Source of the DNA: Primulina eburnea
Lineage: Eukaryota > Streptophyta > Magnoliopsida > Lamiales > Gesneriaceae
Assembly: GCF_022965805.1 (NCBI RefSeq)
Contig: NC_133103.1
Coordinates: forward strand, 26,836,329-26,900,328
Length of the DNA stretch: 64,000 nucleotides
Reading direction: 5' to 3'
Made by a program: the position numbers and the translations under genes. The notes beneath the pieces were generated by a model. That model saw only the letters and a list, made by a program, of their open reading frames with translations, made no database searches and was not told the origin of the DNA. Shown here piece by piece: positions 2,865-41,112 of this stretch. Every line of letters starts with the position of its first letter. Positions within the stretch are counted from its first letter, which is position 1.

Positions 2865-2909
2865 GACTTGCCCTTGGCCTCATCTCTCTGCTTCTACTTT
2901 GCTAACTGC

Positions 2910-3691: not shown

Positions 3692-3694
3692 CTT

Positions 3695-18476: not shown

Positions 18477-20820
18477 ATGCCACAGAAACGTAAAGTACAA
18501 GAAGAAGAGTCAGGGCAAAGCCCCAGCAGTCGAAGGTGAGGGCAGTGCGCCACGACCTGTAGATGACTTCGGTCAATTAATCCAACAACAAGCAAAAGTC
18601 CATGGTGAACAAATCCAGCAGCTACTGGAGATGCAACAGACTACTCATGAACAGGCACAAGCTCAAGCCATAGTACACAGACATGTGCATGTTCAGACAG
18701 ACGTATATGATCGTTTTAGACGTTTGAATCCTCCGGAATTCATGGGAAGCACAGATCCAGCAGTAGCAGAAGAGTGGATTAAGTCATTGGAGTCCATCTT
18801 CTCCTACCTTCATATGGAAGATTTTGACAAAGTAACTTGTGCCGTCTTTTTATTAACAAAACATGCAAGAATATGGTGGGAGAGTGCAAGGGTCGCATTA
18901 CCGGTTGGACCATTGACATGGGAAACTTTCAAAACTGTGTTTTACAACAAGTATTTCAGTAAAGATGTACGAGCCAAGAAAGCCAGTGACTTCCTGAATT
19001 TGAAGCAAGGGACCATGTCAATGACGGAATACATACAACAATTCGAAGCTGGAGTCCAATACGTACCATATATTGCACAGGATGACACAAGTAAGGGCGA
19101 ACACTTCATGCGGGGACTTCGCTCTGAAATTAAAAGAGATGTACGAATGTCAAAAGTTGCTTCGTATGGGGAGATAGTGGAAAGCGCACTTATGGCTGAA
19201 CAACACGAACAAGACATTGACAGAGATAGGCAACAGCGAAGGCAGCAGTACTTTCAAAAGAGCCAAGGAACAGGACAAGGCAAAAAGACCGATAGCAAAG
19301 GTACCCGACCAGAGGAACCCTGTGGCAAGGGTACCCCTCCACGTAAAAAACAGGACAAGCCACCTTGTCCTAAATGTGGCAAACTCCATGGCGGGGAGTG
19401 TATGCAAGGTTCCAATGTTTGTTATCGTTGCAAAAATCCAGGACATCTCGCCAAGAATTGTCCAGGGAGTTCTGAGAAAGTACAAGGACGCCTTTTCTCG
19501 ATGACCAAAGAGGAAGTGGATGCAGATACATCGATGATTACTGGTATGTTCTTGATTTCTGGTATCACTGCTATTGTTTTACTAGATTCAGGAGCCACGC
19601 ATTCCTTTATTTCGAAATCATTTGTAAAGAGACTGGGCATTACAGCAAGTACAATAGAGACACAACTCGCCATAGCCTTACCTTCTGAGCAAGAATTACA
19701 GACAGATCAGATTGTGCGAGGGTGTCCAATATATGTCCAAGGTCATCAGATGTATGCTGAATTGATTGTTTTGAAAATGACCGATTTTGATGTGATATTG
19801 GGAATGGATTGGCTCTCGAAGTACAGAGTTACTATTGACTATGGCATAAAGATGATCAAGTTTGCACCAGTAGGAGCTGAACCATTCACCGTAGCAAGTG
19901 CACGTATATCCTTACCTCTTCGGATAATCTCTTGTATGAAGGCTTGTAAATTACTACAGAAGGGGTGTCAAGGATATTTAGCATCTGTGTTAACTAGTGA
20001 TCCACCTGTTCGTGAATTAAAAGATACAGATGTTGTTTGTGAATTTCCAGAAGTATTTCCTGATGATGTTACAGGCTTACCCCCAGATAGAGAGATCGAA
20101 TTTGTAATTGATGTTGTGGCAGGAACTCATCCGATCTCAAAAGCTCCTTATCGATTAGCTCCTACCGAAATGAAAGAATTGAAAGAACAGTTACAGGAGT
20201 TGCTTAATAAAGGGTTTATTAGACCGAGCTTTTCACCTTGGGGTGCACATGTTTTATTTGTGAAGAAGAAAGACGGTATCCTTCGTCTATGCATTGATTA
20301 TCGGGAGTTGAACAAAGTGACAATCAAAAATAAGTATCCACTCCCTAGAATTGATGATTTGTTTGATCAACTACAAGGAGCTGCTATCTTTTCGAAAATT
20401 GATTTACGATCAGGCTATCATCAATTAAAAGTAAAGTCAGATGATATTTCAAAGACTGCCTTCCGAACCAGGTACGGGCATTATGAATTTCTTGTAATGC
20501 CATTTGGACTAACGAATGCACCGGCTGCATTTATGGATCTAATGAACAGAATTTTCAAGTCATTCTTAGACAAGTTCGTGATTGTGTTTATAGATGATAT
20601 TTGAATTTACTCACGAACTGTAGAGGAACATCGAGAACATCTGTAATTAGTTTTGCAAACTTTGAAAGATAAACATTTATATACAAAATGGAAGAAATGT
20701 GAATTTTGGCTTGAACAAGTATCATTCTTGGGTCATATCATTTCAAAAGAAGGCATATCAGTGGATCCATGTAAGATTGAAGCTGTTAATAACTGGCTAC
20801 GACCTACCACTGTTACCGAG
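18477..20820 (+). pseudogene. Element D gag-protease-RT (left part of gag-pol)
   Basis: A start ATG at 18477 ([11 protein letters not shown]) goes out of frame after about 20 codons; the main frame is open from about 18540 to 20604. Order: gag domain ([25 protein letters not shown]), CCHC knuckle [14 protein letters not shown], protease [14 protein letters not shown] with [24 protein letters not shown] and IVFIDDI. Stops at 20602 and about 20645 fall directly after the FIDD motif. No intron is present between gag and protease: ITGMFLISG is continuous, unlike A and G. The frame is finally cut by C at 20821. Confidence 0.85.
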
Positions 20821-21378
20821 TGATAAAGATAAAATATTGTATATTAATTAAATGTTTTATTATATAAATATATAGTTTTTTATATTAAAAGTTTAAATAT
20901 TATATGTTTTATAATAAATTGTATAAAATATAAGTTGTTGTGTAATTATAAGTTTTTACTATTTTTACAGGTTCGATAAAACACGAATAAACTTGGCATT
21001 GCAAATGGGATTAAGATGATTCTTGGACCTGTAGAAAGTTGATGTTAATATCTACAATATTGATGGAAAGCATAAGATAAAAATCTTCTCACAAGTGGGA
21101 TCAAATTATGCAACAAATAAAGTTACCAAAGGAGTGGCAGTTTTACCATGCTCTAGTATTTTGACCATATCTCTCAAATTACTTGGTCAAATGGTTTGAA
21201 AAAATTACCACAACTAGAAAACTCAATTATCCACATGTTTCTTTTTATGTGAAGAAGCAAATTCGGAGAAGAAGATTTTCAAAAGTGATGTGTATTAAAA
21301 TATTAATTTCTTGGAACACCAATGAAGACTTATGTGTAAAAAATAATATTTTATTTGTGGTTGTCTCCCCAAATTTGG

Positions 21379-21390
21379 CTATAAATAGGG
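21379..21390 (+). promoter_or_regulatory. TATA box of C 5' LTR
   Basis: CTATAAATAGGG followed about 30 bases later by a purine-rich stretch suitable for transcription start; the 3' LTR copy has TTATAAATAGGG. Confidence 0.6.
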
Positions 21391-21733
21391 GTGCATTGTA
21401 ATGTATTGATATATCCCTCATTCTATGAACAAACCTTTGAGTTCATAATATTTCTCTCTATATTTTTTCCTTTATTTCTTCATTTAAATATAATTAGCAT
21501 GTTAATTTATATTCAAAGTTTTACTACTTTGAATAATGAATAGCTAACTTCCTAAAGTTGAGATGATAAGGTGAAACTCTTGGCATTATAATAAGGTTAT
21601 TAAAAGGTAAGAATCTATGTTTTATATTATTTAATCATTATTTATTGTTTATGTTATATTTATTTCTTTAAGCATTTTTATACCCTACTTATAAGTGGGA
21701 GTTTTGATTTATTGTTGCTATATGTTACACTAA

Positions 21734-22008
21734 TTCTTGGAACCATTTAAATGTTAGTTTGGTATTACCAACCATTTAAAGTGGATGACTTGATTTATTA
21801 TATATAAATATATTATAATATTAAATTCTTGGAACCATTTAAATGTTAGTTTGGTTTTACCAACCATTTAACTTGGATTCCTTGATTTACTATATATAAA
21901 TATATCATAATAATATTTTCTTGGTACCATTTAAATGTTAGTTTGGTTTTACCAACCATTTAAAGTGGGAACCTTGATTTAATGTTTACAAATATATATA
22001 TATAGCAC
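21734..22008 (+). repeat. Three tandem copies of a 92-bp unit in the C 5' LTR
   Basis: Units start TTCTTGG at 21734, 21826 and 21918. Each has ACCATTTAAATG, TTTGGT and ACCAACCATTTAA, so it also contains small inverted repeats. The 3' LTR has the same three units at about 31426-31690. Confidence 0.85.
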
Positions 22009-22405
22009 AATAAATACTTGACCACATTTATAAGTTTTGGTATATATTATATATTTATGAGATAATAATTTATAACATAATATAAATATGATTATTTAAT
22101 ATATTGGAACCATTTTATTAAGTGGATTTCAATATTGTTCGTTAATGTTAACTTTATTAAAATACCAGGAGTGGATCCTTTAATCTCAACTACTTAAATT
22201 AAAATTTGAACAATTAAAATTTACCCATTAAATATTCAAACAATTAAAATTAAAAAGAAACAAAAACAAAACAAACAAAAGACATTGTAGTGGACTTGTA
22301 ATTACCTTAGCTTCCCTGTGGATACGATATTCAGACTCACCGAATTATATTACTTGTGGACAACCTGCTCTTGGGAGTGCAACAATCAAAGTCGCAACAA
22401 GTTTT

Positions 22406-22423
22406 TGGCGCCGTTGCCGGGGA
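22406..22423 (+). other. Element C primer binding site (tRNA-Asp)
   Basis: TGGCGCCGTTGCCGGGGA, complementary over 18 bases to the 3' end of plant tRNA-Asp(GUC), seven bases into the internal region. This site is typical for the Athila/Tat group and unlike the Met-type sites of the other elements here. Confidence 0.9.
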
Positions 22424-22597
22424 AGTATAATTTAATTTCAAGTCTATTTAATATTGTTTATAGTTTATTTTTCTTTATTTGAATTTTTATTGCTTTTGTG
22501 TGCTTTTTTTTTCTTTTTCTTTTGCATTTGCATGAGCATTTGGTCACGTACACTTAGTGGTCGACTCATTCGAAACAACCCTTTATTTTTACAAAAC

Positions 22598-24139
22598 ATG
22601 GCGGAAGAACCCATCCAAGAAAATGAAGATGAAATTCAATCTCAACATGATCATGATAGACGAAGAACACTTAGAGATCACATGAATCCTACACGTACTA
22701 GTGCACGTTCATGTCTAGTTTTTCCCCCTGATGCATCTCATTTTAATTTTAAGCCTGGTATTATCCAACTTTTACCCAATTTTCATGGCTTAGATTCTGA
22801 AAATCCATACATGCATTTACGAGAGTTTGAAGAAGTGTGCAACACATATAATGATCTAAATTGTAGCATGAACACCATTCGACTTAAGCTTTTTCCTTTT
22901 TATTTAAAAGATAAAGCTAAAACTTGGCTACAAAATCTTAGATCGGGATCCATTCGAACTTGGGATGAATTGCAACAACAATTTTTGAAAAACTTTTTTC
23001 CATCTCATAGAACAAATTCTTTCAAAAGGCAAATCATCACTTTCACTCAAAAACAAGGAGAAACTTTTTATCAGTGTTGGGATAGATACAAAGAATTGCT
23101 TAATCTTTGTCCACATCATGGTTTTGAAATTTGGAGAGTTGTTTCTCAATTTTATGAAGGCTTAACACCTAAAGATAGGCAAATGGTTGAATTTATGTGT
23201 AATGGAACATTTGAAGATAAAGATCCAAACGAGGCAATTGAGTATCTCGATTCATTAGCTGAAAATGCTCAAAATTGGGACACTATAGGTACAATCGAAC
23301 CCTCAAACAAGATTCAATCTCCTACATCTGGTGGAGGTATGTACACTCTGAAAGATGAACATGATCTTCAAGCTAGATTTACCTCTTTGGCAAGAAAAGT
23401 TGAGGCACTTGAATTGAAAAAGAATGGTCAGTTAAAATCTGTTCAAGAAATTGTGTGTCACATCTGTGATACAAGTGATCATTTTACAAAAGATTGTCCC
23501 ACTTTGTCCTCTTTTAAAGAATGTCTCCATGAACAAGCCAATGTTTTGAACAATTTCAAAAGGCCAAATTTTGAACCATTTTCTCAAAATTACAATCCAG
23601 GTTGGCGAAATCATCCAAATTTTAGTTTGAGGAATGATAATGCTGCACAATTTTCACAACCACATTTCCAAAATCAACAAAATTTTCAAAATTATGCACC
23701 TTATGTTCCTCCACCTAAAAGAAATTTGGAAGATACATTGAATTCTTTCATTGCAAAGCAAGAGTCTATCAATACTCAAACTGCTCAAACCATGACAGAT
23801 TTGAAAGATACTCTTGCTAAATTTGCATCTGCACTTAATGTTCATGAGAAAGGTAAATTTCCTTCACAACCTCTGCCTAATCCCAAGGATCATCATTCAC
23901 AAACTGGAACTTCTGGAACTCAACCGATGGATCAAGTAAAATCTATTATTACCCTTCGAAGTGGTAAGGTTGTGGAAAAATCCATTCTTGAACCTTGTAA
24001 AGATGATGATAAATCAACTCCAAAGGGTAAGGAAGTGGAACCCATAACTTGCGAAGAGGAGGTTCAACAGACAGTGTCACCACCATTCCCTCATGCATTG
24101 AAAAATACAAAAAAATCAAATTTGAATTCTGATATATGA
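22598..24139 (+). CDS. Element C gag
   Basis: Chosen start MAEEPIQENED at 22598 (ACAAAACATGGCG); an in-frame ATG also occurs at 22532. 513 codons without a stop. Residues about 55-230 form the Athila-type gag domain (FHGLDSENPYMHLREFEEVC, KLFPFYLKDKAKTWL, VSQFYEGL, FMCNGTF). A CCHC-like knuckle CHICDTSDHFTKDCP follows, then an Asn/Gln/Phe-rich linker and a coiled stretch, and the conserved ITLRSGKVVE near the C-terminus. In this lineage gag normally runs into pol; here a frame change at about 24139 separates them. Role: particle shell and RNA packaging. Confidence 0.88.
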   Translation: MAEEPIQENEDEIQSQHDHDRRRTLRDHMNPTRTSARSCLVFPPDASHFNFKPGIIQLLPNFHGLDSENPYMHLREFEEVCNTYNDLNCSMNTIRLKLFPFYLKDKAKTWLQNLRSGSIRTWDELQQQFLKNFFPSHRTNSFKRQIITFTQKQGETFYQCWDRYKELLNLCPHHGFEIWRVVSQFYEGLTPKDRQMVEFMCNGTFEDKDPNEAIEYLDSLAENAQNWDTIGTIEPSNKIQSPTSGGGMYTLKDEHDLQARFTSLARKVEALELKKNGQLKSVQEIVCHICDTSDHFTKDCPTLSSFKECLHEQANVLNNFKRPNFEPFSQNYNPGWRNHPNFSLRNDNAAQFSQPHFQNQQNFQNYAPYVPPPKRNLEDTLNSFIAKQESINTQTAQTMTDLKDTLAKFASALNVHEKGKFPSQPLPNPKDHHSQTGTSGTQPMDQVKSIITLRSGKVVEKSILEPCKDDDKSTPKGKEVEPITCEEEVQQTVSPPFPHALKNTKKSNLNSDI

Positions 24140-27100
24140 TATTTTTAAACAAGTAATAGTTAATATTCCTTTATTAGATGCAATAAAACAGGTACCATCA
24201 TATGCTATATTTTTGAAAGACTTGTGCACTGTGAAAAGAAAATTGAATGTGAAAAAGAAAGCATTTTTAGCCGAACAAGTAAGTGCAATCATTCAAAATA
24301 ATAATACTTTGAAATACAAAGACCCTGGTTGTCCTACTATTTCATGTATTATTGGAGAACGAAAGATTAAAAAAGCCTTGCTTGATCTTGGAGCTAGTGT
24401 TAATTTACTTCCATATTCAGTTTATCAAGAACTCAATCTAGGCGAGTTAAAATCTACTTCGGTAACACTTTTACTTGCTGATAGATCTGTTAAAGTGCCT
24501 AGAGGTATGGTAGAAGACGTGTTGGTCCAAGTTGATAACTTTGTATATCCTGTCGATTTCATAGTTTTAGATACACAACCTATCGAAGCTTGTAATGCAA
24601 TTCCTGTAATTTTGGGTCGTCCATTTTTAGCAACTTCTAATGCTCTTATAAATTGCAGGAATGGAATAATGAAGTTGTCATTTGGTAACATGACCTTGGA
24701 GCTCAATGTTTTTAATCTTTGTAAGCAACCACATGACAAAGGAGATGAAAGTGAAGATGAAAATCTTATTGAAACTCTTGTGGAAGAAAACATTCAAGAA
24801 GGGAGTACTCGTGATCAATTAGATATTTGTTCAATTGAAACTGTTAAAGAAAATATTGAAATTGATCTTGATGATTTTATCAGGTATCACTCGTTACCAG
24901 GATCAGAGAAAGAATTTGATGCAAAATATGAGAACAAAGACGAACTACCCATATTGGAGTTAAAACCCTTGCCAGAAGAATTGAAGTATGCATTTCTTGG
25001 AGAAGATGAAACATATCCGGTGGTAATTTCTTCCAAACTAGAAAGTGATCAAGAAGGTAAATTAGTTGATATGCTTAAAAGACATAAAAATGCAATTGGT
25101 TGGACACTAAAAGATCTCAAGGGCATTAATCCACTAATTTGCACACACAAAATTCATTTAGAAGAAAATGCTAAAACATCTCAACAACCACAAAGGAGAT
25201 TAAATCCACACATGAAAGATGTTGTGAAAACTGAAGTTCTCAAATTACTTGATGTTGGGATTATCTACCATATTTCTGATAGTAAGTGGGTAAGCCCAAC
25301 ACAAGTAGTTCCGAAAAAATCTGGCATCACAGTGATAAAAAATGAAAAAGGTGAATTGTTAACAAGTCGAGTCCCATCTAGTTGGCGGATGTGTATTGAT
25401 TATAGAAAATTAAATGACGCCACTAGAAAAGATCATTTTCCATTACCATTTTTGGATCAAATTTTAGAAAGAGTAGCAGGTCATCCATACTACTGTTTTC
25501 TTGATGGATATTCAGGTTATTATCAAATTCCCATTGCACTCGAAGATCAAGATAAAACTACATTCACATGTCCTTTTGGAACATTTGCATTTAGAAGGAT
25601 GCCATTTGGATTATGCAATGCCCCAGCAACATTTCAAAGATGTATGCTAAGCATTTTTTGCGACATGGTTGAAAATTGTTTGGAAATTTTCATGGATGAT
25701 TTAACTGTCTTTGGGAATACATTTGATAATTGTCTTGAAAATTTGGAAAAAGTTTTAAAAAGATGCGAGGAAAAAGGTTTTATTTTAAATTGGGAAAAAT
25801 GTCATTACATGATTACTTCTGGAATTGTTTTGGGACATGTCGTGTCATCTCATGGAATTGAAGTTGATAAAGCAAAAGTTGATGTCATTGCCAATTTATC
25901 CCCTCCAAAAACCATTAAAGAAATTCGCTCATTTTTGGGACATGCTGGATTTTATAGAAGGTTTATAAAGGACTTTAGTTTAATCTCTAAACCCATTTGT
26001 AACCTCTTAACAAAATACACTGCATTTGAGTGGACTCAAGAATGTCAAAATGCTTTTGATAAAATCATTCGACATTTAACATCAGCTCCTATCATGCAAC
26101 CTCCTGATTGGTCTTTACCATTTGAAATCATGTGCGACGCGAGTGATTATGCAGTCGGTGCAGTACTGGGTCAAAGAATAAACAGTAAGCCTTATGTGAT
26201 ATATTATAAAAGTAGAACTTTAAACAATGCTCAAATGAATTACTCCACAACTGAAAAAGAACTACTTGCTGTAATATTTGCATTAGATAAATTTCGATTC
26301 TTATTTGATTGGATCAACGACTATTGTGTTTACTGATCATTCTGCTATTAGATATTTGTTGACGAAACAGGATGCAAAGCCACGACTGATACGATGGATT
26401 TTGTTGCTCCAAGAATTTGACATTGTGATCAAAGATAAAAAAGGAACCGAGAATGTCGTAGCCGATCATTTATCAAGACTAGTAACAGGATCATCTTGTG
26501 AAATGACACCAATTAACGATAATTTTCCTCGATGAACATCTATTTTCAGTTACTACTACACCTTGGTTTGCTAACATAGTAAATTTTCTTGTGACAGGAA
26601 AAATGCCACCGCAATGGAGTTCTCAAGATAAAAGAAAATTTTTGAATGAGGTAAAAAACTTTTATTGGGATGATCCATATCTGTTCAAGTATTGTCCGGA
26701 TCAAATTTTTCGACGTTGCATACCCGAAAATGAGGTAAGTAGTGTCATTAAATTTTGTCATTCAGAAGCATGCGAATGACATTTTTCTTCAAAGAAAACG
26801 GCTGCAAAAATCTTGCAGTGTGGATTTTATTGGCCCACTTTGTTTAAAGACACCCACGAAATCTGCAAGATCTGTGAAAATTGTCAAAAATTGGGTGCGA
26901 TTTCAAAAAGAAACATGATGCCTTTGAATCCTATCATTGAAATTGAAATTTTTGACTGTTGGGGAATTGATTTTATGGGACCTTTTCCACCGTCGTTTGG
27001 ATACTTGTATATTTTAGTTGCAGTTGATTATGTTTCCAAATGGATAGAGGCATTCCATGTCGAACAAATGATCATAAAATCGTCATCAAATTTTTAAAAG

Positions 27101-27844
27101 AAAATATTTTTAGTAGATTTGGAATTCCTCGAGCCATGATAAGTGATGGGGGAACTCACTTTGTTAATAAACCATTTGCTTCATTAATGAAAAAATATGG
27201 TATTACTCATAAAGTAACTACTCGTTATCATCCCCAAACAAATGGACAAGTTGAATTAGCTAATAGGGAGATAAAGCAAATTTTGGAAAAAAACTGTTAA
27301 CTCAAATAGAAAAGATTGGTCTCTGCGACTTAATGATGCACTTTGGGCATATCGAACAGCTTTTAAAACATCATTGAATATGTCTCCCTATAGGTTGATT
27401 TATGGAAAACATTGTCATTTGCCTGTGGAATTGGAACATAAAGCTTATTGGGCGATCGAAACTTTAAATTCAGGCATGGATGATGCCAACAAATTGCGTA
27501 AATTGCAACTTAATGAACTTGATGAACTCAGAAATGACGCGTATGAGAATTCAAGGATTTATAAAGCAAAAATCAAATCATTTCATGATAAAACAATTCT
27601 TAGAAAATCTTTTGAGATTGGTAAAAAAGTTTTGCTTTATAATTCTCGACTTCACATATTCTCAGGAAAATTACGATCAAGATGGACAGGCCCATATGTT
27701 GTAAAGCATGTGTATCCTTATGGAGCTGTGGATATTGAAAATCCTAAAAATGGTGATGTTTTTAAAGTAAATGGACAAAGGCTTAAACCATTTTTGGAAA
27801 ATGAAATCTTTCAAGAAGAGTTTATTTCCCTTTCTGATCCTTAA
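24140..27844 (+). pseudogene. Element C pol: protease, RT, RNase H, integrase (frameshifted)
   Basis: The main open stretch 24213-26336 holds protease (LLDLGASVNLLPYSVYQEL), RT (CIDYRKLNDATRKDHFPLPF, CNAPATFQRCM, FMDDLTVFG) and RNase H (MCDASDYAVGAVLGQ). The frame then changes at about 26305-26336, 26530, 27090 and 27297, and there is a TGA at about 26777. The later pieces encode the RNase H end (VVADHLSRL), the integrase zinc region (CKICENCQKLG) and the DDE core (WGIDFMGPFP, AMISDGGTHF, NGQVELANRE), ending with a GPYVV-type module and a stop at 27842. Several changes are one-base indels in A- or T-runs, so some could be assembly errors. Confidence 0.85.
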
Positions 27845-27870
27845 ATTTTTATGTTGCATTTAATTTTGTT

Positions 27871-27884
27871 TGTTTTTATTTCAG
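27871..27884 (+). promoter_or_regulatory. Splice-acceptor-like site before the first accessory ORF of C
   Basis: TGTTTTTATTTCAG, a pyrimidine-rich tract ending in CAG, 30 bases after the pol stop and 135 bases upstream of ATG 28019. Athila env-like genes are thought to be expressed from spliced RNA, so this could serve the same purpose. Confidence 0.35.
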
Positions 27885-28018
27885 GTTTCCTTAATCTTTT
27901 TATTTTCCCGGTTAAATGGCGGATAACGGTACTCCGTGACTCTCATAGTCGGTTAAATCAGTTTCCCACAATTGCTGATAACAAAAATTAAAAAAAAATC
28001 ATTTCTTTTCTTTTCAAA

Positions 28019-28564
28019 ATGGATGAAATTCTCTCAAAAATTTGTAAATATTTTCCTTCTGTTTCTGAAAATGTTCTAAGAAAAATTTATGCAGGAAGGT
28101 GTGAAAGATTGAGATTGCTAATGCAAAAAGGAATTCCAGAAGATATTCGTCTTGTAATAGAAGCTAAGGTCCGATTAAGAGCAGATGTTCCACAATCATT
28201 GCTCATTCGGTATTTGCCTGGATTAGGAAAAAGCACTTATGCGAAAAAACGAAGGGCCAAAAGTTTAGGGGTTTGTCATAAGTGTGCGAGATGGACTTGT
28301 GACAAACGATGCAGATCTTTGGGATGTGTTTCCAATAACAGAGAAGATAAAATTGGTTTCATTAAGAATTGGCTGAGTAAGGAGTCTTTAGATAACATCT
28401 TATTGACTCTTGAGACGCATTCTAGTGGACATGTGGATATTGAACTTCTCCGTTTATGGAAACAATTCCAAGATGAGCGTCATAGTCTTGGGAATCCGAC
28501 TAAAAAAGACCATGTTTGCCAATTTATAAGAAAATTGGATGGGAAGCATATCCTCGACTCATAG
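28019..28564 (+). CDS. Accessory ORF 1 of element C: Cys-rich basic protein, viral NABP-like
   Basis: 181 codons, ATG in context TTCAAAATGGATG, no stop or frameshift. Residues 1-65 are helical and mixed-charge. Residues 72-84 hold STYAKKRRAKSLG, followed by a Cys cluster C86-x2-C89-x4-C94-x3-C98-x4-C103. The order of an S-x-Y-A motif, an Arg/Lys run and C-x2-C-x8-C-x4-C resembles the small nucleic-acid-binding proteins of carla- and trichoviruses, which bind nucleic acid and can suppress silencing or alter host transcription. The C-terminal 75 residues are charged and unassigned. It follows pol and is seven bases before the LOG reading frame. Homology is my recognition from the motif layout and has not been searched. 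Confidence 0.6.
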   Translation: MDEILSKICKYFPSVSENVLRKIYAGRCERLRLLMQKGIPEDIRLVIEAKVRLRADVPQSLLIRYLPGLGKSTYAKKRRAKSLGVCHKCARWTCDKRCRSLGCVSNNREDKIGFIKNWLSKESLDNILLTLETHSSGHVDIELLRLWKQFQDERHSLGNPTKKDHVCQFIRKLDGKHILDS

Positions 28565-28714
28565 AAGGCGTTGAAGCCGTTTCTGGACGTAAAACCAGAG
28601 GAAAATTGTGAGCCACAATCACACTACTGTTTATATGCATGTGTGTCATTATTGTTTTTACTATTTATTCTGTTTACAGCTGTGACCCATAGTTTTGTCA
28701 TGATAACATATTAC

Positions 28715-28752
28715 CCCTATAAAATCTCTCATCTTTCTCTCTATTTTCGCAG
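28715..28752 (+). promoter_or_regulatory. TATA-like box and splice-acceptor-like site before the LOG ORF
   Basis: CCCCTATAAAATCTC is followed by a pyrimidine tract and TTTTCGCAG ending at 28752, 19 bases before the ATG. The segment could be a retained core promoter, or the 3' splice site for a subgenomic RNA, or both. A further CTGTTTACAG lies near 28680. Confidence 0.4.
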
Positions 28753-28771
28753 AAAAAAAAGAAGTAAAAAC

Positions 28772-29410
28772 ATGGCTGGATCCTCTGCACAAACATTGAA
28801 AAATATTTGTGTATTTTGTGGGTCGAGTCCTGAAAAAAATGAAGTGTTTGTAGAAGCAGCGAATAATCTTGGAAAGATATTGGCTGAGAGAAAAATTCAC
28901 TTGGTATATGGGGGAGGTAATATTGGGTTAATGAGATCTGTTTCAACATCTGCTCATCTTGGAGGTAGTCAGGTTTTGGGTATTATTCCTACAGCTTTAG
29001 CTGAAGGAAATATTACAGGTGTTACGATTGGGGAAGAATTAAAAGTTTCTTCTATGTATGAAAGAATCACCAAAATGATTGAAAATTCTGATGCTTTTAT
29101 CGCACTACCAGGTGGTTTTGGTACATTAGAAGAAATTTTTCACACTGTTTCTTGGGCACAACTTAATATCCATAATAAACCTGTGGGCTTGTTGAATATC
29201 AATAATTATTATGACAGTTTGTTGACATTTCTTGATAAAGCTGTGGAACAGAATTTCATTTCAGAAAATTCACGACGGATGCTCATCTGTGCTTCGACTG
29301 CCGACCAATTAATTGATGATTTGGAAGCTTTTGTTCATAAGCCTGATCCGATGATAGAAAATATCAATTGGTCGCAATCAAGCAGTAAGAAAAGGAAGTT
29401 GGATCATTGA
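28772..29410 (+). CDS. LOG-like: Accessory ORF 2 of element C: LOG-type cytokinin riboside 5'-monophosphate phosphoribohydrolase
   Basis: Complete 212-residue protein. Start at 28772 chosen because AAAAACATGGCTGG is a strong plant context and the LOG fold begins 12 residues later (ICVFCGSS). Further marks: LVYGGGNIGLM (45-54), VLGIIP, an M-x-x-R motif with Arg98, and PGGFGTLEE (113-121) with the phosphate-binding Gly pair and catalytic Glu. Length equals plant LOG proteins (about 210-230). Family reaction: releases the ribose-phosphate from cytokinin nucleotides to give the active free base, in cytosol or nucleus. Unlike host LOG genes, which have several introns, this reading frame is continuous. 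The tail SSSKKRKLDH looks like a nuclear signal. It lies between pol and the 3' LTR, on the element's strand. Confidence 0.88.
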   Translation: MAGSSAQTLKNICVFCGSSPEKNEVFVEAANNLGKILAERKIHLVYGGGNIGLMRSVSTSAHLGGSQVLGIIPTALAEGNITGVTIGEELKVSSMYERITKMIENSDAFIALPGGFGTLEEIFHTVSWAQLNIHNKPVGLLNINNYYDSLLTFLDKAVEQNFISENSRRMLICASTADQLIDDLEAFVHKPDPMIENINWSQSSSKKRKLDH

Positions 29411-30500
29411 TTCAAACGTCGTGGATTGGTTTGCGTTTGTTTCAGTTTGTTATCTTCAATAAAATTCTAGGTGATATCTCTTTCATTATGTACTCTTTAT
29501 TAATAGTTATTTTGACATTAGGGACAATGTCATATTCTGACTAAGGGGAGAAAACTTAAAAAAAAAATTAAAAAAAAAACTTAAAAATAAAAATAAAAAA
29601 TATATATTATTTTAAAATAAAATCATGTTTATTGTTTGTATCATAGTAATTTTTGCAAAAATGTCATACATTACATGTTTGAAAGGTTTAGATTAGAACT
29701 TGTAATAATCTATTTAAGTATGTTTAAATTTTTATTTGAAAAAAAAAGTCAATTTTAATATTTTGATCACTATAAAAATATGATTTATGAAATCTTTTTG
29801 ATTGATTAACCATTGTGATAAAATCAGTTATTAAAGTATGTGGCCCATGATATACCTGATAAGAGTGCCTAAATTTTTAAACTCGCACATATTTTGTGAG
29901 TGAGTGGAGAGGATTGAGAAAACAGCTTGCGAGCCTTTATTGATCATCAGAGAAGCTATCTATTGTTTAGCCTTTAAGTTACATGCTGCGAAGAAAAAAA
30001 AGAAAGATGTTAAATAAATATGTGGCCAAGAAGCATAAACTTAGTCTGATTTCATGATGTAAAAAAAAAATCAGGAAAAAAAAAATATAATAAGAACAAC
30101 TGGATTTTAAATCAATGGATTTCCTATCTTTTGATTAGTTTGGCTCGTTTGTCTGTCTGCATTTTGTAAACCATTTTCCTGAGCATTTATCTGTATTCCA
30201 ACTCCATGAGAGAAATCATTCCCATAAATTGAAACACTTATTAACCTGTGAGAATATGGAGTTGGGACTCTTATTAGGAATTTCTGAAGGCCATGTACAT
30301 TTAATTACCAGAAAATAAGCTTTGAATTGATCAGTTCAGATTATTTCATAAATTATAATTATAATGATCTTGATATAACTTTGACAGTTTTTAAATTTAA
30401 TTTAAACACTTGGATAGTTTTGATTATATTTCTATTTAAATTAATCAATATGTTTTGTGTTGCTATTAACGCTTAAATTGCTAGGGACTAGCAATAAGCT
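29411..30500 (+). other. Element C 3' non-coding region
   Basis: About 1.1 kb of AT-rich sequence without a convincing ORF on either strand. It has several A-runs and, near 29525-29555, TTAGGGACAATGTC followed by AAGGGGAGAAAAC, of the sort often seen downstream of Athila coding regions. Confidence 0.6.
29458..29463 (+). terminator. Poly(A) signal candidate after LOG ORF
   Basis: AATAAA 48 bases after the LOG stop codon, preceded by a T-rich stretch (TTTGTTTCAGTTTG). It could end a short LOG transcript independently of the LTR. Confidence 0.4.
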
Positions 30501-30512
30501 GGTTGGGGAGTG
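30501..30512 (+). other. Element C polypurine tract
   Basis: GGTTGGGGAGTG directly before TGATAAAG of the 3' LTR. Confidence 0.75.
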
Positions 30513-32086
30513 TGATAAAGATAAAATATTGTATATTAATTAAATGTTTTATTATATAAATATATAGTTTTTGTTTTATTAAATGTTTAAATATTATATG
30601 TTTTATGATAAATTGTATAAAATATAAGTTGTTGTGTAATTATAAGTTTTTACTATTTTTACAGGTTCGATAAAACACGAATAAACTTGGCATTGCCAAT
30701 GAGATTAAGATGATTCTTGGACCTGTAGAAAGTTGATGTTAATATCTACAATATTGATGGAAAGCATGAGATAAAAATATTCTCACAAGTGGGATCAAAT
30801 TATGCAACAAATAAAGTTACCAAAGGAGTGGCAGTTTTACCATGCTCTAGTATTTTGATCATATCTCTCAAATTATTGGTCAAATGGTTTGAAAAAATTA
30901 CCACAACTAGACAACTCAATTATCCACATGTTTCTTTTTATGTGAAGAAGCAAATTCGGAGAAGAAGATTTTCAAAAGTGATGTGTATTAAAATATTAAT
31001 TTCTTGGAACACCAATGAAGATTTATGTGTAAAAAATAATATTTTATTTGTGGTTGTCTCCCCAAATTTGGTTATAAATAGGGGTGCATTGTAATGTATT
31101 GATATATCCCTCATTTATGAACAAACCTTTGAGTTCATAATATTTCTCTCTATATTTTTTTTCCTTTATTTCTTCATTTAAATATAATTAGCATGTTAAT
31201 TTATATTCAAATTTTATACTTTGAATAATGAATAGCTAACTTCCTAAAGTTGAGATGATAAGGTGAAACTCTTGGCATTATAATAAGGTTATTAAAAGGT
31301 AAGAATCTATGTTTTATATTATTTAATCATTATTTATTGTTTATGTTATATTTATTTCTTTAAGCATTTTTATACCCTACTTATAAGTGGGAGTTTTGAT
31401 TTATTGTTGCTATATGTTACACTATTTTTGGAACCATTTAAATGTTATTTTGGTATTACCAACCATTTAAAGTGGATGTACTTGATTTATTATATATAAA
31501 TATATTATAATATTAAATTCTTGGAACTATTTAAATGTTAGTTTGGTTTTACCAACCATTTAACTTGGATTCCTTGATTTACTATATATAAATATATCAT
31601 AATAATATTTTCTTGGTACCATTTAAATGTTAGTTTGGTTTTACCAACCATTTAAAGTGGGAACCTTGATTTAGTGTTTAAAAATATATATATAGCACAA
31701 TAAATACTTGACCACATTTATAAGTTTTGGTATATATTATATATTTATGAGATAATAATTTATAACATAATATAAATATGATTATTTAATATATTGGAAC
31801 CATTTTATTAAGTGGATTTCAATATTGTTCGTTAATGTTAACTTTATTAAAATACCAAGAGTGGATCCTTTAATCTCAACTACTTAAATTAAAATTTACC
31901 CATTAAATATTTAAACAATTAAAATTAAAAAGAAAAAAAAAAAACAAAAACAAAAACAAAACAAAAAGACATTGTAGTGGACTTGTAATTACCTTAGCTT
32001 CCCTATGGATACGATATTCGGACTCACCGAATTATATTACTTGTGGACAACCTGCTCTTGGGAGTGCAACAATCAAAGTTGCAACA
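30513..32086 (+). repeat. Element C 3' LTR
   Basis: 1574 bases, near-identical to 20821-22399, including the three 92-bp units; ends GCAACA before the duplicated CCGAG. Confidence 0.92.
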
Positions 32087-32091
32087 CCGAG

Positions 32092-34195
32092 GTACGTAGT
32101 TTTCTTGGGCTAGCTGGTTATTACCGTCGGTTTATAGCGGGATTTTCTAAGATAGCATTGCCTTTGACTGCTTTAACTCGAAAGAATGTGAAATTTGTAT
32201 GGGACGAAGCATGTGATCGCAGTTTCCAAGAGTTAAAGGCAAAATTGACTTCAGCACCGGTCCTTGCTATTCCAGAAGGATCAGGAGAATTTGTAGTATA
32301 CAGTGATGCTTCTAAACAAGGTTTAGGAACAGTCTTGATGCAACATGGGAAGGTGATTGCTTATGTCTCTAGATAATTGAAAGAATATGAAAAGAACTAT
32401 CCCACACATGATTTAGAACTGGCAGCAGTGGTATTTGCGTTGAAAATATGGCGCCATTATCTGTATGGTGAACGGTGTGAAATTTACACGGACCACAAGA
32501 GTCTGAAATATTTATTCACGCAAAAAGAACTGAATATGAGACAACGACGCTGGTTGGAATTGGTGAAGGATTACGATTGTTTTATTAATTATCATCCAGG
32601 TAAAGTCAATGTTGTTGCGGATGCATTAAGTCGAAAGTCCAGTTCTATTGCTGCAATGCAAATACAAGAACAAATTTTATGGGATTTACAGAACTTTAAG
32701 ATTGATGTTATTCCAAAAGGGGTTGTAATCCAGTTATCATCCCTCATGATTCGACCAACGCTTGCAGACAGAATTAAGGCCGAACAAAACACAGATAATG
32801 AATTACAACAATTGAGGCAGCGAGATGAATAAAAAGAAATTTGAACTTTGAATTGGATGGGGAAGGAATATGGACATATCAAGGGAGATTGTGTGTGCCA
32901 AAGCAAGGAACGATCAGAACCGACATTCTTATTGATGCTCATGCTACTCCCTATTCAATCCATCCAAGAGGCACAAAAATGTACAAGGATTTGAAACCAT
33001 TATTTTGGTGGCCAGGTATGAAAAGGAACATTCCTCAATTTGTTGCACAATGTCTAACTTGTCAACATGTCAAGACTGAACATCAAAGACCAGCAGGACT
33101 TCTGAAACCACTACCCATTCCTGAATGGAAATAGGAGCATATTACGATGGATTTCATCTTAGGTTTGCCAAGAACACAAAGAGGATTCAATGCTATATGG
33201 GTTATTGTGGATCGACTAACAAAGTCAGCTCACTTTCTTCCGGTGAAGACCACATACACGATGAATCAATATGCTGAAGAATACATCAAAGAGATAGTGA
33301 GGCTTCATGGCATCCCAGTGTCCATTGTATCAGATAGAGATCCCAAATTTACATCTGCATTTTGGAAAAGCTTGCATCATACTATGGGAACTCGATTTTC
33401 ATTCAGCACAGCATTCCACCCTCAAACTGATGGACAATCAGAATGAGTGAATCAGATATTAGAAGATATGTTGAGGGCATGTACTATTGACTTCCCGGGT
33501 AGTTGGGACAGTAAACTACCGTTGGCTGAGTTTACATATAACAATAGCTATCAGTCAAGCATTGGAATGGCACCATATACTGCATTATATGGTAGAAAAT
33601 GTCGATCTCCAGTACATTGGGATGAAATAAGAGAAAGGAAATTATTAGGACCTGAATTGGTACAACAGACAGCTGAATTGGTAACCAAGATCAGAGAAAT
33701 AATGCACACTGCCTAGAGTCGACAGAAAAGCTATGCTGATGTGCGACGTCGTCGATTGGAACTTCAGGTTGGTGACCATGTATTTGTAAAGATATCACCA
33801 TTGAAGGGCATCTTGCGTTTTGGTAAGAAGGGAAAATTGAATCCAAGATCTATCGGTCCATTTTAAATCTTGGAAAGAATAGGAGATAGAGCCTACCGAG
33901 TTGCTTTACCTCCAAACTTGTCAAATGTTCACAATGTTTTTCACGTTTCCTTGCTACGAAAGTATTTGTCCAATCCTTCTCACGTTCTTCATTACGAACC
34001 ATTAGAGCTTGCATCGAATCTCACATATGAAGAACGACCGGTCCAAATCCTCGATAGGAAATCAAAAGTGTTACGAGCAAGGAAATACCCTTGGTGAAAT
34101 TATTATGGCGCAATCATGCGATTGAAGAAGAAACTTGGGAGCGAGAAGACAAGATCCAACAGAGATATCCTGAACTATATGGTATGTCAAATTTC
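32092..34195 (+). pseudogene. Element D RNase H, integrase and chromodomain-like tail (right part of pol)
   Basis: Continues D's pol after C: RT connection ([16 protein letters not shown]), RNase H ([24 protein letters not shown]), integrase zinc region (HPRGTKMY, CLTCQHVK), DDE core (VDRLTKSAHF, VSDRDPKF, GQSE), GPF module and chromodomain-like end. Stops at 32374, 33132, 33444, 33714 and 33864 and frame changes near 32832 and 34090 break it. Four of the five stops are single C-to-T or G-to-A changes relative to the paralogous codons in A and I. Confidence 0.85.
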
Positions 34196-36164: not shown

Positions 36165-37484
36165 AGCACAGCAGCTTCCAGCAGCAAGATATTCTACTTC
36201 AGTTGTGGAAGTTGCTATGGATGTTTGCTTCTTGCTGAACCATGAGATCGGTCTGTCCCCTAGAAACTGACATGATCCACTAGTACTTTTATGATCAAGC
36301 TTACATCCTGCATAATCTGCATCTTAATATCCAACTAAATTGAAAGATGAGTCTTTAGAATACCATAACCTAACACTTTGTGTGCCCTTAAGATATTTCA
36401 AAATACGCTTGGCAGCGGTAAAATGTGATTGCATAGGATTTGCTTGAAATCTAGCACACATGCATACAAAAAATACAATATCAGGACGACTAGCAGTTAG
36501 GTACAGTAATGAACCTATTAAACATCTGTAAAGTGTCGTCTCAACTGATATTCCCCCTTGATCAGTATCCAATTTTACTGATGAGCTCATGGGAGTACTT
36601 GCAGCTGAACTCGATTCCATGCCAAACTTCTTCAGTAATTCCTTCGTGTATTTAGTTTGACTAATGAAAGTGCCCGACTCGAGTTGCTTCACTTGTAATC
36701 CAAGAAAGAAGGTCAGTTCACCCATCATGCTCATTTCAAATTTCTCCTGCATTAACTTAGCAAACTTCTCGCATAATTTGGGGTTAGTTGACCCAAAAAT
36801 AATGTCATCAACATAAATTTGAACGAGTAGAGTATGATCATTCTTGGAGAATTTGAACAATGTCTTATCAACTGATCCAACAGAAAAATCGTGATCAGTT
36901 AGAAATTTCTAAAGGGTTTCATACCAAGCTCTTGGAGCTTGCTTAAGACCATATAAGGCTTTGTTCAAATGGTAGACATGATCAGGAAGGTGATGATTGA
37001 TAAAACCTGGAGGTTGTTCAACGTAGACTTCTTCCTGCAACCGGCCATTCAGAAATGCACTCTTTACATCCATTTGATAGGCTTTGAAGTTTTTGAATGA
37101 AGCATATGCAAGGAATATTCTGATTGCCTCCAGTCTTGCAACTGGTGCATATGTCTCATCGTTATCAATTCCTTCTTCTTGCCTATATCCTTGTGCTACT
37201 AGCCTTGCTTTGTTGCGCACAACTGAACCATCTTCGTTCAGTTTGTTCCTGTACACCCATTTTGTACCTATAACAGTTTTTGAAATTGGTCTTGGAACTA
37301 AGTTCCAGACATTGTTATGGATAAACTGATTTAGCTCCTCTTGCATTGCATTTATCCAATTTGGATCAGCAAGAGCTTCATCAATTTTCTTGGGTTCTAG
37401 TTGTGATACGAAAGTTGAATGAATGAATAGATTGAGCATCCGAGTTTTTGTTCTTACTGGATCAGATGGATTACCTATTACCAA
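36165..37484 (-). pseudogene. Element E reverse transcriptase and RNase H (Copia)
   Basis: Open pieces 36909-37484 and 36324-36860 encode the Copia [33 protein letters not shown] (motif A), [14 protein letters not shown], and the catalytic VQIYVDDIIFG. RNase H follows (STSGSCQFLGDRPISWFSKK, EVEYLA) up to the D insertion at 36160. Stops near 36906 and 36322 interrupt the frame. Confidence 0.85.
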
Positions 37485-37505
37485 CTCTGGAGGATGTGAT
37501 TTCTT

Positions 37506-38129
37506 TCATCTGAGTTCAGCATTTGTTGTTTCTATATCAGCAATTTCTTCAGTAGGTAACTGAGAGTATTCAGTTTCTGTTGGAGCTGATTCAGTTGACA
37601 ACTGATTCACATTTGGTTGCTCTATTAACTGATCATTAGGAACAGCTTCTGGTTCTTCTGGTTGATCTAATACTTCTGGTTCAGGTGTTTGGAGGTTTCT
37701 TTGATTGATATGAATGTCTTCTTCATCATCATCATTCAAGCTTATATCTGTAAATCTATCAGCTAGCTCAACTTGATCAGTTGGCTTATCAGTTAGTACA
37801 GTTTCATCAAAAACAACATGGATAGATCCCTCAACATTTAAAGTATTTTTGTTGAAGACTCTATAAGCTTTACTCACTGAAGAATAACCAAGAAATATTC
37901 CTTCTGCAGATTTAGCATCAAAAGCTTTTCAATGAGTTTTACCATTGACAAGTATAAAGCATCTGCAGCCGAATATTTTGAAGTAGGAAACCACACTTTT
38001 TCTTCCATGCCAGATCTCATAAGGTGTTTTCATATGATTCTTATTAATCATTGATCTGTTTTGAGTGTAACACGCAGTGTTCACTGCCTCTGCACAAAAC
38101 CTTTGAGAGATACTAGAATCAGCAATCAT
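37506..38129 (-). pseudogene. Element E integrase C-terminal part and linker
   Basis: Two open pieces. 37929-38129 carries ISQRFCAEAVNTACYTQNR and PYEIWHGRKSVVSYFKIFGC, the conserved Copia integrase C-terminus. 37506-37877 carries KAYRVFNKNTLNVEGSIHVVFDE and then a Glu/Pro/Gln-rich linker before RT. A frame change and stop lie near 37925 and the catalytic Glu region near 38160 is disrupted. Confidence 0.75.
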
Positions 38130-38230
38130 TATTCTAGCAGCCTCTTTGAGGGTCCGATTTCTCCTTTCAGCTACTACCTATTTTGCTGAGGAGTTCTAGC
38201 TGCTGAAAGCTCATGCTTGATTCCGGTATT

Positions 38231-39049
38231 CTATAAATAATTTGAAAGAATTTGAATGATAAATTCAGTTCCTTGATCGGATCTGATTCTGTCAATTCCA
38301 ACTAATTTTTCATTTAATAATCCTTTGAAAAGCTTAATCAGTTGAGCAGCAGTTTGGTCTTTGGACTTGAGAAATATAACCCAAGTGAATCTTGAAAAGT
38401 CATCTACAACCACCAAGGTGTATTTCATTCCCCCTAAGCTCATGACTGGTATTAGACCAAATAGATCCATATGTAACAGTTCTAAGCATCGGGTAGAAGA
38501 TTTACGACCCTTTTTCTTAAAAGAAGATTTGATTTGTTTACCAAACTGACATGCTGAGAAAATTTTGTCTTTAATAAAATCCATTTTGGGCAATCCAGTA
38601 ACAAGATCGTGGTTACTTAAATATGCAATAGACTTGAAGTTCAAGTGGTTTAATCTCTTATGCCACAACCAGTTTTTAGAGGATTTTGAAGCAATAAAAC
38701 ATACTGGTGCATAAGGTTGATCATTCCAGCTGACTTTATAAGTGTTTCCACACCTTTTGCCAGTTAGGATGATCTCTTCAGTTGAGCTTTTGACTGAACA
38801 AGAATGTTTGTCAAACTGAACTGAGAATCCATTATCGCATAATTGACTGATGCTGATCAGATTATACTTGAGATTCTCTACTAATAATACATCATTAATG
38901 GTGAAGTTACCATGGATAAGCTTACCCTTACCCACAGTTTTACATTTAGAATTATCTCCAAAACTGATGTTTGGTCCAGTGCACTTAACCAGTTGAGATA
39001 ATAATTTTGAATCTCCTGTCATGTGGCGTGAACATCCACTATCTACCAT
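38231..39049 (-). pseudogene. Element E protease, GAG-pre-integrase and integrase N-terminal part
   Basis: The open stretch begins at the Copia protease motif VDSGCSRHMTGD, followed by ISISQLCDNGF, the zinc region LWHKRLNHLNFKSI, then integrase with LHMDLFG (first Asp) and GTEF (second Asp region, IRSDQGTEF). It is in Copia order, protease-integrase-RT. It ends in a frame change near 38231 and is separated from gag by a degraded stretch at about 39050-39340. Confidence 0.82.
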
Positions 39050-39344
39050 ATAGATTCAATGCTGGTACCTGTTACCTGCAATCACACACAAGATAAGATT
39101 CTGGTACCCCTTTTTCTATTTGGGTCCAAAGTTGATTAGTCCTTTAGGAATCCAGACTTGGATCAGTCTAACTGACCGTCCAGTTGCTGTATTCCAGATG
39201 GTCTTTCCCGGTCTGTGTGTGCGTGGTGCATGGTGTGCAGGAGATACAACATGTGATTTGCCCTTTTTCAACTGATTGTTCAGCCAATATCTCTTCTGAA
39301 CTGGCTTCCTGTTATATTAATTTGAGTAGCCATTTGAGTTATTT

Positions 39345-41054
39345 TTACTTGAAAATTTTTGGTGGCTGACTTCGTGAGTCAGTCACAACTTTTGGGCTAT
39401 AACCAATACGACATCTTTTGCCCGTGTTCATACTTTGAGTTGGCTGTTCAATTGGTTTACTTGGCTCAGCTTTTTCTTGTACCATAACTGATTTGACAAA
39501 GTGAATGTATTTCCCTTTATCCATATTCAGTTTTGGTCGAGTATCTTTGAGAGACATTTCATCTTGGTTACTGAACCCTAAACCAGTTTTATCAGTAACT
39601 GATTTTTGTGAGTTCCGTATATCAGTCAATGCCACAGATGATTTGTTCCAAGCCCGAATAAGCTCATTTTGGTTTGAATTTTCAAGCATTAACTTTTGAA
39701 TCATTAATTGATCCCTGCTTCTTTCATTACTGAGCTCAGAAATCTCCCTTCTCAGACTCAACATATCAACTGATTCATCAGTTTTTGTTTTATCGTCTTT
39801 GGGATCAGTTTGCTTTGCTCTGGCTTTTTCAAAAGATAAAGCAAGGTTTTGATACTCACTAACCATGTCATGAAGAGTCGAAATAAGTTCTTCTCTTGTG
39901 AAATCAGTGGAGCTAAAGTCAAATACCTGTTGACTGCTGGACTCCAGTTCTGTATCACTAGCCATCAGACATTTCACTTCTTCTTCATTGTCACTAGAAC
40001 TGCATGAAGTTTCTGGTTCTGACTCCTCGCTGTCAGTGTCTGCCCACTTTGTTTCGCTCTCTTCAGCCAAGAGCACTTCATGTTTCTTCCTGGAGAACTT
40101 CTTATCATCTTTGGATCTCTTTTTGTGCTCATATAGTTTCTTTCTTCTTTCAGTTGAGCCTTGACTGTCTTTCTTTGGTTTGGTACAGTTGTAGCAAGCG
40201 TTTGATTCTTCCTTGGAATTGCTTCTTTGATATCTATTTTGAAAGTTTCCTTGAGTTTTCCTCATAAATCTTCCAAACTTTTTGATGAACAATGACATGG
40301 CATCATTGCTTAGTTGATCAACAGCTTTTTCAACTGAACCAGTTGGTTCTGTTCTAACAGGAGCTATGGCAGTGGTGACTGCTGAAGTAGAAGATTCTCC
40401 TTCTCGAGTTTGCAACTCAAACTCGTAGGCTTTCAAATCAGCAAATAGATCATGAAGCTCAACTTTGTTCAGATCCTTGGATTCCCTCATTGCCATGGTC
40501 TTCACATCCCACTCCTTGGGAAGACCTCTGATTATCTTCAATGCAACTTCTTTGTTTGTCTACACTTTTCCAAGTGCATTTAATTCATTGATGATGCAGC
40601 TGGTTCTTTCATCATAATCATGCATCGTTTCACCAACTCTCATTTCGATATTGTCAAACTTCTGAACAGCAACAGAAAGTTTGTTTTCTTTGGTTTGTTC
40701 GTTCCCTTCGCAGAGCTGGATCAGCTTCTCCCAAATCTCTTTGGCTGTCTTGCACATTTTGATTTTGCTGAAAGTTACTTTATCCAGCGTCTTGTATAGT
40801 ATATCCTTTGCCACATTATCCAAGTTGGCTTTTCTTTTATCCTCTTTGGTCCATTCTTCTCTGGGCTTTTCTATACGATGAGGTGCCCCATCTGTAATGG
40901 CAACAACTGTGTTGGCTTTCAAAATCTTCATGGTTCCGTCAGTTATAACGTACCACATATCATCATCTTCTGCAGCTAGGTGAACATGCATCCTAATCTT
41001 CCAATCATCGAAGTCTTCTCTAGAGAACATAGGAATCTTGTTGAATGAAGACAT
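39345..41054 (-). pseudogene. Element E gag
   Basis: Starts at MSSFNKIPMFSREDFDDWKI. The piece 40560-41054 encodes the UBN2/retrotran_gag-type Copia capsid domain (WEKLIQLCEGNEQTKENKL, ELNALGKV). A one-codon break near 40560 is followed by 39345-40541 (IIRGLPKEWDVKTMAMRES). The latter holds a partial zinc knuckle (CYNCTKPKKDSQ, distal His/Cys lost), a Glu/Ser-rich acidic stretch, and a coiled-coil region (EISELSNERSRDQLMIQKLMLEN split over the text). A very long gag of this kind is typical of SIRE/Maximus elements. Confidence 0.8.
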
Positions 41055-41097
41055 AATGAAAAATTTGAGTATAGATATTATGAGACGAGATACAACC

Positions 41098-41112
41098 GCT
41101 CTGATCATACCA
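41098..41112 (-). other. Element E primer binding site (with 3-base insertion)
   Basis: Minus-strand TGGTATGATCAGAGC. The two halves of the standard tRNA-iMet site (TGGTAT and CAGAGC) are separated by GAT. It lies two bases inside the LTR end. Confidence 0.65.

Follow-up and report, generated by a model that had tools for sequence, protein, structure and literature searches.

The window, a 64,000-nucleotide stretch of the Primulina eburnea genome, holds an Athila-like Ty3/gypsy element of 11.27 kb (20821..32086; features lie on the plus strand unless stated otherwise) that carries a complete LOG-type ORF of 212 residues (28772..29410) and, directly upstream of it, an ORF of 181 residues (28019..28564) related to the nucleic-acid-binding proteins (NABP) of carlaviruses. 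LOG is the enzyme by which plants activate the growth hormone cytokinin. The element has TG...CA ends, its 5′ LTR of 1579 bases (20821..22399) and 3′ LTR of 1574 bases (30513..32086) align with each other, and the target-site duplication CCGAG flanks it on both sides (20816-20820 and 32087-32091). A primer-binding site, TGGCGCCGTTGCCGGGGA, which we take to be of the Athila type, follows the 5′ LTR (22406..22423) and has the same core in a second group of elements, family B, described below; a purine-rich stretch precedes the 3′ LTR. The name Athila-like rests on this site, on the layout, and on the call made by an earlier, sequence-only reading, which had also placed the LOG ORF inside a full element with LTRs and a CCGAG duplication. 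That placement is borne out by the LTRs, the duplication, the primer-binding site, and the purine-rich stretch. The two LTRs are 97.3% identical over 1569 aligned bases (K2P 0.027), and the insertion age obtained from this divergence is roughly 0.9 to 2.9 Myr across the four rates tried.

Within these bounds, gag (22598..24139, ATG start checked; Pfam PF03732, 3.9e-21) is followed by the protease-RT-RNase H part of pol, which forms a separate ORF in the window copy (24213..26336; RVT_1 3.6e-29, RT_RNaseH_2 4.4e-31), and by an ORF of 156 aa for the C-terminal part of integrase (27374..27844). The latter has no match of its own in a Pfam scan; it aligns with the end of a 466-aa integrase-type ORF, and its identity reaches 78% to family B and 66% to L089. 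L089, the only match in a scan of genome contigs, is a contig on which the 466-aa ORF is followed by an NABP, and it is probably a plant-type contig that entered a Candidatus Nomurabacteria MAG record by contamination. In the window copy gag and pol are broken into several ORFs, yet the LOG and NABP ORFs are both open; over 1.2 kb, this by itself means little. On the minus strand, antisense to gag, positions 23016-23124 give a sub-threshold Rfam match to snoR71 (38.4 bits against a cut-off of 40, E 6.3e-5).

A second Ty3/gypsy element is interrupted, within its RT/RNase H, by the LOG-bearing one, and the translated flanks of the insertion are neighbouring parts of one RT/RH. The remainder of the window (1518-5897, 36324-41108, 51380-62237) consists largely of ORFs of other LTR elements, many of them short or interrupted.

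The identity of the LOG ORF is clear. Its product matches PF03641 at 4.4e-38, its best solved relative is Arabidopsis LOG3 (2a33, 3.7e-60), and the motifs that the sequence-only reading had listed for a complete 212-residue protein, FCGSS, GGGNIGLM, Arg98, and PGGFGTLEE, are all present. An AlphaFold model (pLDDT 86.9) has the LOG fold, with 2a33 chain B as its best PDB match (rmsd 1.3); the tail, residues 202-212, falls below pLDDT 50 and is disordered in the model. Codon use is AT-rich like that of gag, as had been stated (GC3 0.268 for LOG, 0.214 for gag). The viral-type ORF immediately upstream was absent from the earlier account.

Copies and selection in two families

A six-frame search of the 812-Mb genome for LOG gave 1463 first-look candidates, the best 150 of which were scored. 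Every one of these 150 family A copies, the window's included, is full length and 95-100% identical, and 147 are stop-free, in a sample that favours intact copies. As a counter-check, copies were picked by NABP rather than by LOG, and 20 of 150 NABP matches were examined as loci. LOG sequence lies downstream in all 20, and in 16 it is full length and stop-free; these loci hold the best NABPs and are therefore also young copies. The four exceptions are L109, with a one-base gap in LOG; L110, with an altered LOG 3′ end; and L111 and L113, some 66 kb apart, which have lost most of LOG and retain the same last quarter. Either duplication in place or movement of a subline without LOG would account for the last two.

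A second family, B (P0023 type), has 80 matches in the same genome, P0023 itself being found at 100%. Its LOGs are 65-68% identical to those of family A, and 57 of the 80 are stop-free over the matched stretch. The order integrase C-terminus, NABP, LOG holds at eight of eight family A loci, the window's own included, and at 12 of 12 family B loci. Integrase is spread over two frames in L002, L095, and L096, and L007 retains just a fragment of it; in L003 and L005, NABP is split over two frames. LOG is multi-copy in this genome, and in sister copies it keeps its place in the element (20/20 loci); the sequence-only reading would have been undermined by a LOG confined to one copy or lying outside the element elsewhere. 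That LOG is not element-borne at all, and is instead a host gene that adjoins or underlies a retrotransposon, or else an artefact of assembly, might be suggested by the names of ordinary host LOG enzymes given to at least six of the 120 relatives listed (e.g., LOGL10 of Populus and a LOG3-like protein of Primulina). With the same order after integrase at all 20 loci of two families, and with LTRs and a target-site duplication enclosing LOG, we give this explanation almost no credence.

Between the families we compared the window copy with the family B copy L099 by the Nei-Gojobori method, in which divergences above 1 are rough. LOG gave a dN of 0.259 and a dS of 1.24 (ratio 0.209; Fisher's test on rounded counts, p 2.6e-17), the integrase C-terminus a dN of 0.138 and a dS of 1.525 (ratio 0.09), and the first 150 codons of NABP a dN of 0.269 and a dS of 1.664 (ratio 0.162). 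For NABP of the window against that of L089, dN/dS was 0.269 for the ORF as a whole and 0.215 when only the first 150 codons were taken. Purifying selection has maintained LOG between the two families, less tightly than integrase, and the LOG ratio of about 0.21 is not that of the neutrally evolving, frequently interrupted ORF that would have counted against the earlier account.

Recent copies look different. Within family A, N/S values relative to a mutation-matched expectation, which are biased in that copies were picked by protein similarity, came to about 0.65 for LOG variants seen in a single copy and to about 0.47, only mildly low, for those that copies share (79 ungapped copies, the window's included, with L051 and L086 of 80 left out; a stop in three of the 79). 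The corresponding NABP values, subject to the same bias, were 0.92 and 0.76 in 53 ungapped copies, five of which have a stop, and gaps or truncation affect 24 copies beyond these 53. Recent copies thus look nearly neutral, above all in NABP, which, given its near-neutral N/S, its stops, and its gaps, is decaying freely in them.

The selection data also bear on whether LOG is a captured passenger that hitch-hikes without function. Such a passenger would fit L089, in which no LOG match occurs in the 983 bases after NABP, and the two copies from which most of LOG has been deleted. It is disfavoured by a ratio of 0.21 at a dS of 1.24 and by motif residues that are nearly fixed while other sites have changed, and we regard it as very improbable. 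Since NABP is found in L089 without LOG, NABP may be the older of the two accessory genes.

Substrate pocket, tail, and origin of the element LOGs

In CgLOG, catalysis depends on an Arg and a Glu, and the prenyl-group site consists of Met96, His97, Lys100, Glu125, and Trp129 (PMC4979012). Mapped by motif, these correspond in the window protein to R98 and E121 (catalytic) and to positions 95, 96, 99, 124, and 128 (pocket). We compared an element-type set, the window LOG plus 120 relatives among the matches listed (n = 121), with 120 host LOGs among the matches listed. The catalytic pair is retained almost throughout the listed element-type LOGs (R98 in 117/121, E121 in 116/121), as are W128 (120/121) and M95 (106/121). 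The rest of the pocket has changed: position 99 is Leu, Ile, or Met in 118 of the 121, Glu persists at position 124 in only three and His at position 96 in only 37, whereas H96, K99, and E124 occur in every one of the 120 host LOGs listed. The window copy conforms, with R98, E121, M95, and W128 present and Y96, I99, and H124 substituted.

With H96, K99, and E124 gone, the ability to act on cytokinin nucleotides may have been lost; the element LOG is probably an active nucleotide hydrolase, the substrate of which is uncertain. The sequence-only reading had held that the enzyme activates cytokinin, and as stated that claim is not supported, given the substitutions in the window copy and most of its listed relatives. 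An ordinary cytokinin-activating phosphoribohydrolase, from which the element would gain through cytokinin-driven cell division, nevertheless has points in its favour: the catalytic Arg and Glu, the PGGxGTxxE motif, and the LOG fold are retained, and each of the first-branching Xanthoceras proteins has one or more LOG units in which MHERK and the pocket Glu persist. The loss of the host Lys and Glu in nearly all listed element-type proteins speaks against it, as does the location of the matching CgLOG residues, which line the adenine/prenyl pocket (PMC4979012). We consider such an enzyme a possibility to be entertained, if not the one to be expected.

The tail sets the element proteins apart as well. 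Among the matches listed, a basic cluster occurs in the last 25 residues of 110 of 121 element-type LOGs and one of 120 host LOGs, and an LxLxL sequence in the last nine residues of 103 of 121 and none of 120, respectively. We take the LxLxL end to be an EAR-type repression motif. Five of the 18 LOGs that have no LxLxL, namely the window copy, P0002, P0005, P0023 (family B), and P0026, carry the basic part by itself; the other 13 are odd gene models, are truncated, or are one substitution off. From these features we infer that the basic tail could serve as a nuclear import signal and that the EAR-like end could bind a co-repressor. Taken further, the tail would allow the LOG fold to be mainly a non-enzymatic nuclear scaffold, imported by its basic part and binding TOPLESS-type co-repressors through its EAR-like end, so as to regulate element or host chromatin. 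The contrast with host LOGs at the C-terminus favours such a role; a catalytic dyad kept in 116-117 of 121 listed proteins is unexpected for a dead scaffold, an EAR-like end is lacking in both the window copy and the protein of family B, and we judge the scaffold improbable.

Where the element LOGs came from was approached with a tree of 40 element-type LOGs (drawn from the window and the 120 listed), 22 of the 120 listed host LOGs (sampled from the listed LOG1/3 and LOG8 types), and one bacterial LOG. All 40 element-type LOGs fall on one side of a branch with support 99/97, set apart from the 22 host LOGs. Element-borne status is shown or suggested for only some of the 40, the rest being placed by the tree and by the shared pocket and tail. 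The two Primulina families are element-borne by layout. The gene model of P0003 (Xanthoceras) also includes 21 residues that resemble a gag-pol junction (E 0.004), and in P0007, P0011, and P0060, LOG lies on contigs as long as NABP-bearing ones. In this comparison, which took in 83 LOG and 95 NABP matches out of 120 listed for each gene, the matching lengths of 2128, 4511, and 8723 suggest contigs that carry both genes. Two further coincidences of length were set aside, a contig of 905 being too short for both ORFs and 21981555 being a Xanthoceras chromosome.

The named hosts among the matches listed are Xanthoceras, Melia, Diplodiscus, Reevesia, Populus, Paulownia, and Primulina, and some of the element-type LOGs of the tree come from named rosids and lamiids. 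The simplest reading is that a plant LOG transcript was captured once. Capture of a host LOG, as the sequence-only reading proposed, stands in that the protein is closest to plant type-I LOGs and is encoded by a single open ORF; its cytokinin-activating role is the part that is unsupported. Two proteins from Xanthoceras branch first among the 40, and in three checked from this plant one LOG unit or more still has both MHERK and the pocket Glu; the captured enzyme may therefore have been canonical, its pocket having changed later. Compared with type-I LOG phosphoribohydrolases (AtLOG3, 2a33; AtLOG8, 1ydh; CgLOG), the element LOG shares the fold, the catalytic Arg and Glu, and PGGxGTxxE, and differs in its replaced His96, Lys99, and Glu124, in its basic and often EAR-like tail, and in being borne by an LTR element. 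Scans of IMG/VR returned no relatives of LOG or NABP; the sole match there to a DNA pattern (L108) has ORFs that read as phage-type and was taken as chance.

The NABP ORF, a conserved stretch, and splice signals

The protein encoded upstream of LOG matches PF01623 (Carla_C4) at 3.9e-6 (27.2 bits, cut-off 20.9) over residues 64-104, and reaches 20.2 bits with PF05515 (Viral_NABP), under the cut-off of 23. Among the window protein and 40 of the 120 relatives listed (n = 41), PF01623 is found in 32 and PF05515 in 34, and public sequence data contain 244 relatives at E<=1e-3. One of these, P0199 (Rhamnella), has the integrase C-terminus and NABP joined in one gene model. With a pLDDT of 58, the model of NABP is too poor to prove homology by fold, and its top three matches in BFVD, which are weak (E 1 to 2.5), are suggestive only. 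All three come from plant viruses: two are suppressors of RNA silencing and the third is a nucleic acid binding protein. Like the carlavirus NABPs (PF01623, PF05515; e.g., p12 of chrysanthemum virus B), the element protein has a PF01623 match and a basic stretch before a Cys-rich motif; unlike them, it is encoded by an LTR element, is 181 aa long, and is covered by the profile only at residues 64-104. The p12 protein is described as a nuclear transcriptional activator and silencing suppressor (PMC7588395).

A stretch of about 120 nt (28505..28623) that overlaps the 3′ end of NABP and the non-coding DNA beyond it is more conserved than the NABP coding DNA. Around 28505-28623, families A and B agree at 112 of 117 positions and family A and L089 at 105 of 115; in the first 150 NABP codons the figures are 306/447 and 320/447. 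Across the three lineages, then, this stretch is 91-96% identical and NABP coding DNA 68-72%. The family B NABP carries extra codons, and in L099 a stop ends it after 176 codons, behind which the conserved 3′ stretch persists. Since the conservation continues beyond the NABP stop codon and, in family B, lies behind an earlier one, selection on the protein does not explain it. The window contains a single copy of the 17-base core of this stretch.

Four small stems pair in all six distinct sequences from which they were themselves read off, and one shows compensatory double changes in two pairs, with a covariation score that 13 of 500 shuffles reach and that comes from three lineages only. In minimum-energy folds the stems appear together only in family A, the family B and L089 sequences folding otherwise when taken alone. 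An Rfam search of 20800-32100 assigned the conserved stretch to no family, the sub-threshold snoR71 match being the only return. We take 28505-28623 to be a likely cis-acting element, perhaps acting as RNA; export of unspliced RNA, packaging, and control of splicing are candidate roles.

Some env-like accessory ORFs of plant elements are expressed from spliced RNAs, and the window copy offers predicted signals for the same route. A candidate TATA box in the LTR, TATAAATAG (21380..21388), is followed 227 bases further on by a candidate 5′ splice donor, GTAAG (21607..21611), the only GTAAG or GTATG in 20821-23000. A family B LTR has a similar TATA box and then two GTAAG donors. For acceptors we applied an untrained rule (CAG, no AG in the preceding 13 bases, and at least 15 pyrimidines in 20), which four of the 416 AGs in 22400-30512 pass. 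One candidate (27884..27885, exon start 27885) lies 135 nt before the NABP ATG; another (28752..28753, exon start 28753) lies just before the LOG ATG, with a third, 28679, also before LOG; the fourth, 27665, is inside the integrase ORF. We regard the predicted acceptors before the two window ORFs as strong candidates. In the family B copy L107 the same rule passes one of 423 AGs (7244, upstream of NABP). When it is relaxed to 14 of 20, five family B sites pass, among them one about 110 bases before NABP, another in the LTR, and a pair in gag/pol. The family B acceptor site before LOG is poor.

The accessory genes, the host cell, and known systems

We suspect, with rather more confidence than doubt, that LOG and the carlavirus-type NABP form a two-gene accessory module of an Athila-like lineage and act on the host cell. 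The lineage would have taken up a plant LOG transcript and kept it as an accessory gene beside NABP, and both proteins would be made from RNAs spliced from the LTR donor to the acceptors before each ORF. NABP would shield element RNA from silencing and, by its likeness to the carlavirus relative, might act on host transcription. LOG, entering the nucleus by means of its basic tail, would cleave a nucleoside 5′-monophosphate, either a cytokinin nucleotide or a changed substrate, and its activity would bring the cell into a condition in which the element is more readily expressed or transmitted; in many relatives, the EAR-like end may also recruit a co-repressor. Several findings run against this account: neither the window copy nor the protein of family B has the EAR-like end; LOG is not universal, with no match in L089 and most of it lost in L111 and L113; H96, K99, and E124 are replaced; N/S within family A is only mildly low for LOG, and NABP decays in recent copies and is truncated in L099; the fold matches of NABP are weak; and in family B a single AG passes the strict acceptor rule, the site before LOG being poor. 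A more specific proposal for host manipulation combines a viral-type silencing suppressor, a LOG-derived nuclear hydrolase with a new substrate (possibly a host nucleotide signal rather than cytokinin), expression of both from spliced RNAs, and a structured cis element for the unspliced RNA. All of this together we would call unlikely.

In position, the two genes resemble the env-like accessory sense ORFs of Athila and Bagy-2, which also lie between pol and the 3′ LTR (PMC7264820); here a LOG-type enzyme and a nucleic-acid-binding-type protein take their place. Word searches of the accessible text of that review of aORFs (PMC7264820) and of a 2019 survey (PMC6317226) returned no occurrence of LOG.

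A LOG-type domain in plant Ty3/gypsy elements has precedents. The 2011 work of Steinbauerova et al. is said to have described two Athila-like elements with similarity to LOGL4. In a later study, LOG/YgdH domains are recorded in the consensus sequences of LTR elements from Populus and two species of Citrus, a finding said there to agree with Steinbauerova et al. 2011 (PMC9289625). Since LOG in Citrus and Populus LTR elements is already in print, the phenomenon itself is not new. For these elements the accessible text gives the domain only, with no pocket change, tail, selection, NABP, splice sites, or RNA element, and "carla" and "PF01623" have no occurrence in the main text (PMC9289625). Among the papers listed by searches of one open-access library, no title or abstract opening describes an NABP beside LOG, a changed pocket, or such a tail. 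Added here are the two families and the selection on them, the changed pocket, the tail, the NABP partner, the ~120-nt element, and the candidate acceptors.

The extra ORFs of plant LTR elements are mostly without known domains, according to the same study (PMC9289625). The element described here has two that adjoin, each with relatives of known role and both pointing to control of the host, through RNA silencing in one case and nucleotide or hormone metabolism in the other; with such relatives at hand, the question of why elements keep accessory genes becomes testable. The relation of NABP to carlavirus proteins suggests that genes have passed, in one direction or the other, between LTR elements and the RNA viruses of plants. 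Finally, element LOGs that are named as host LOG enzymes would inflate counts of the LOG gene family.
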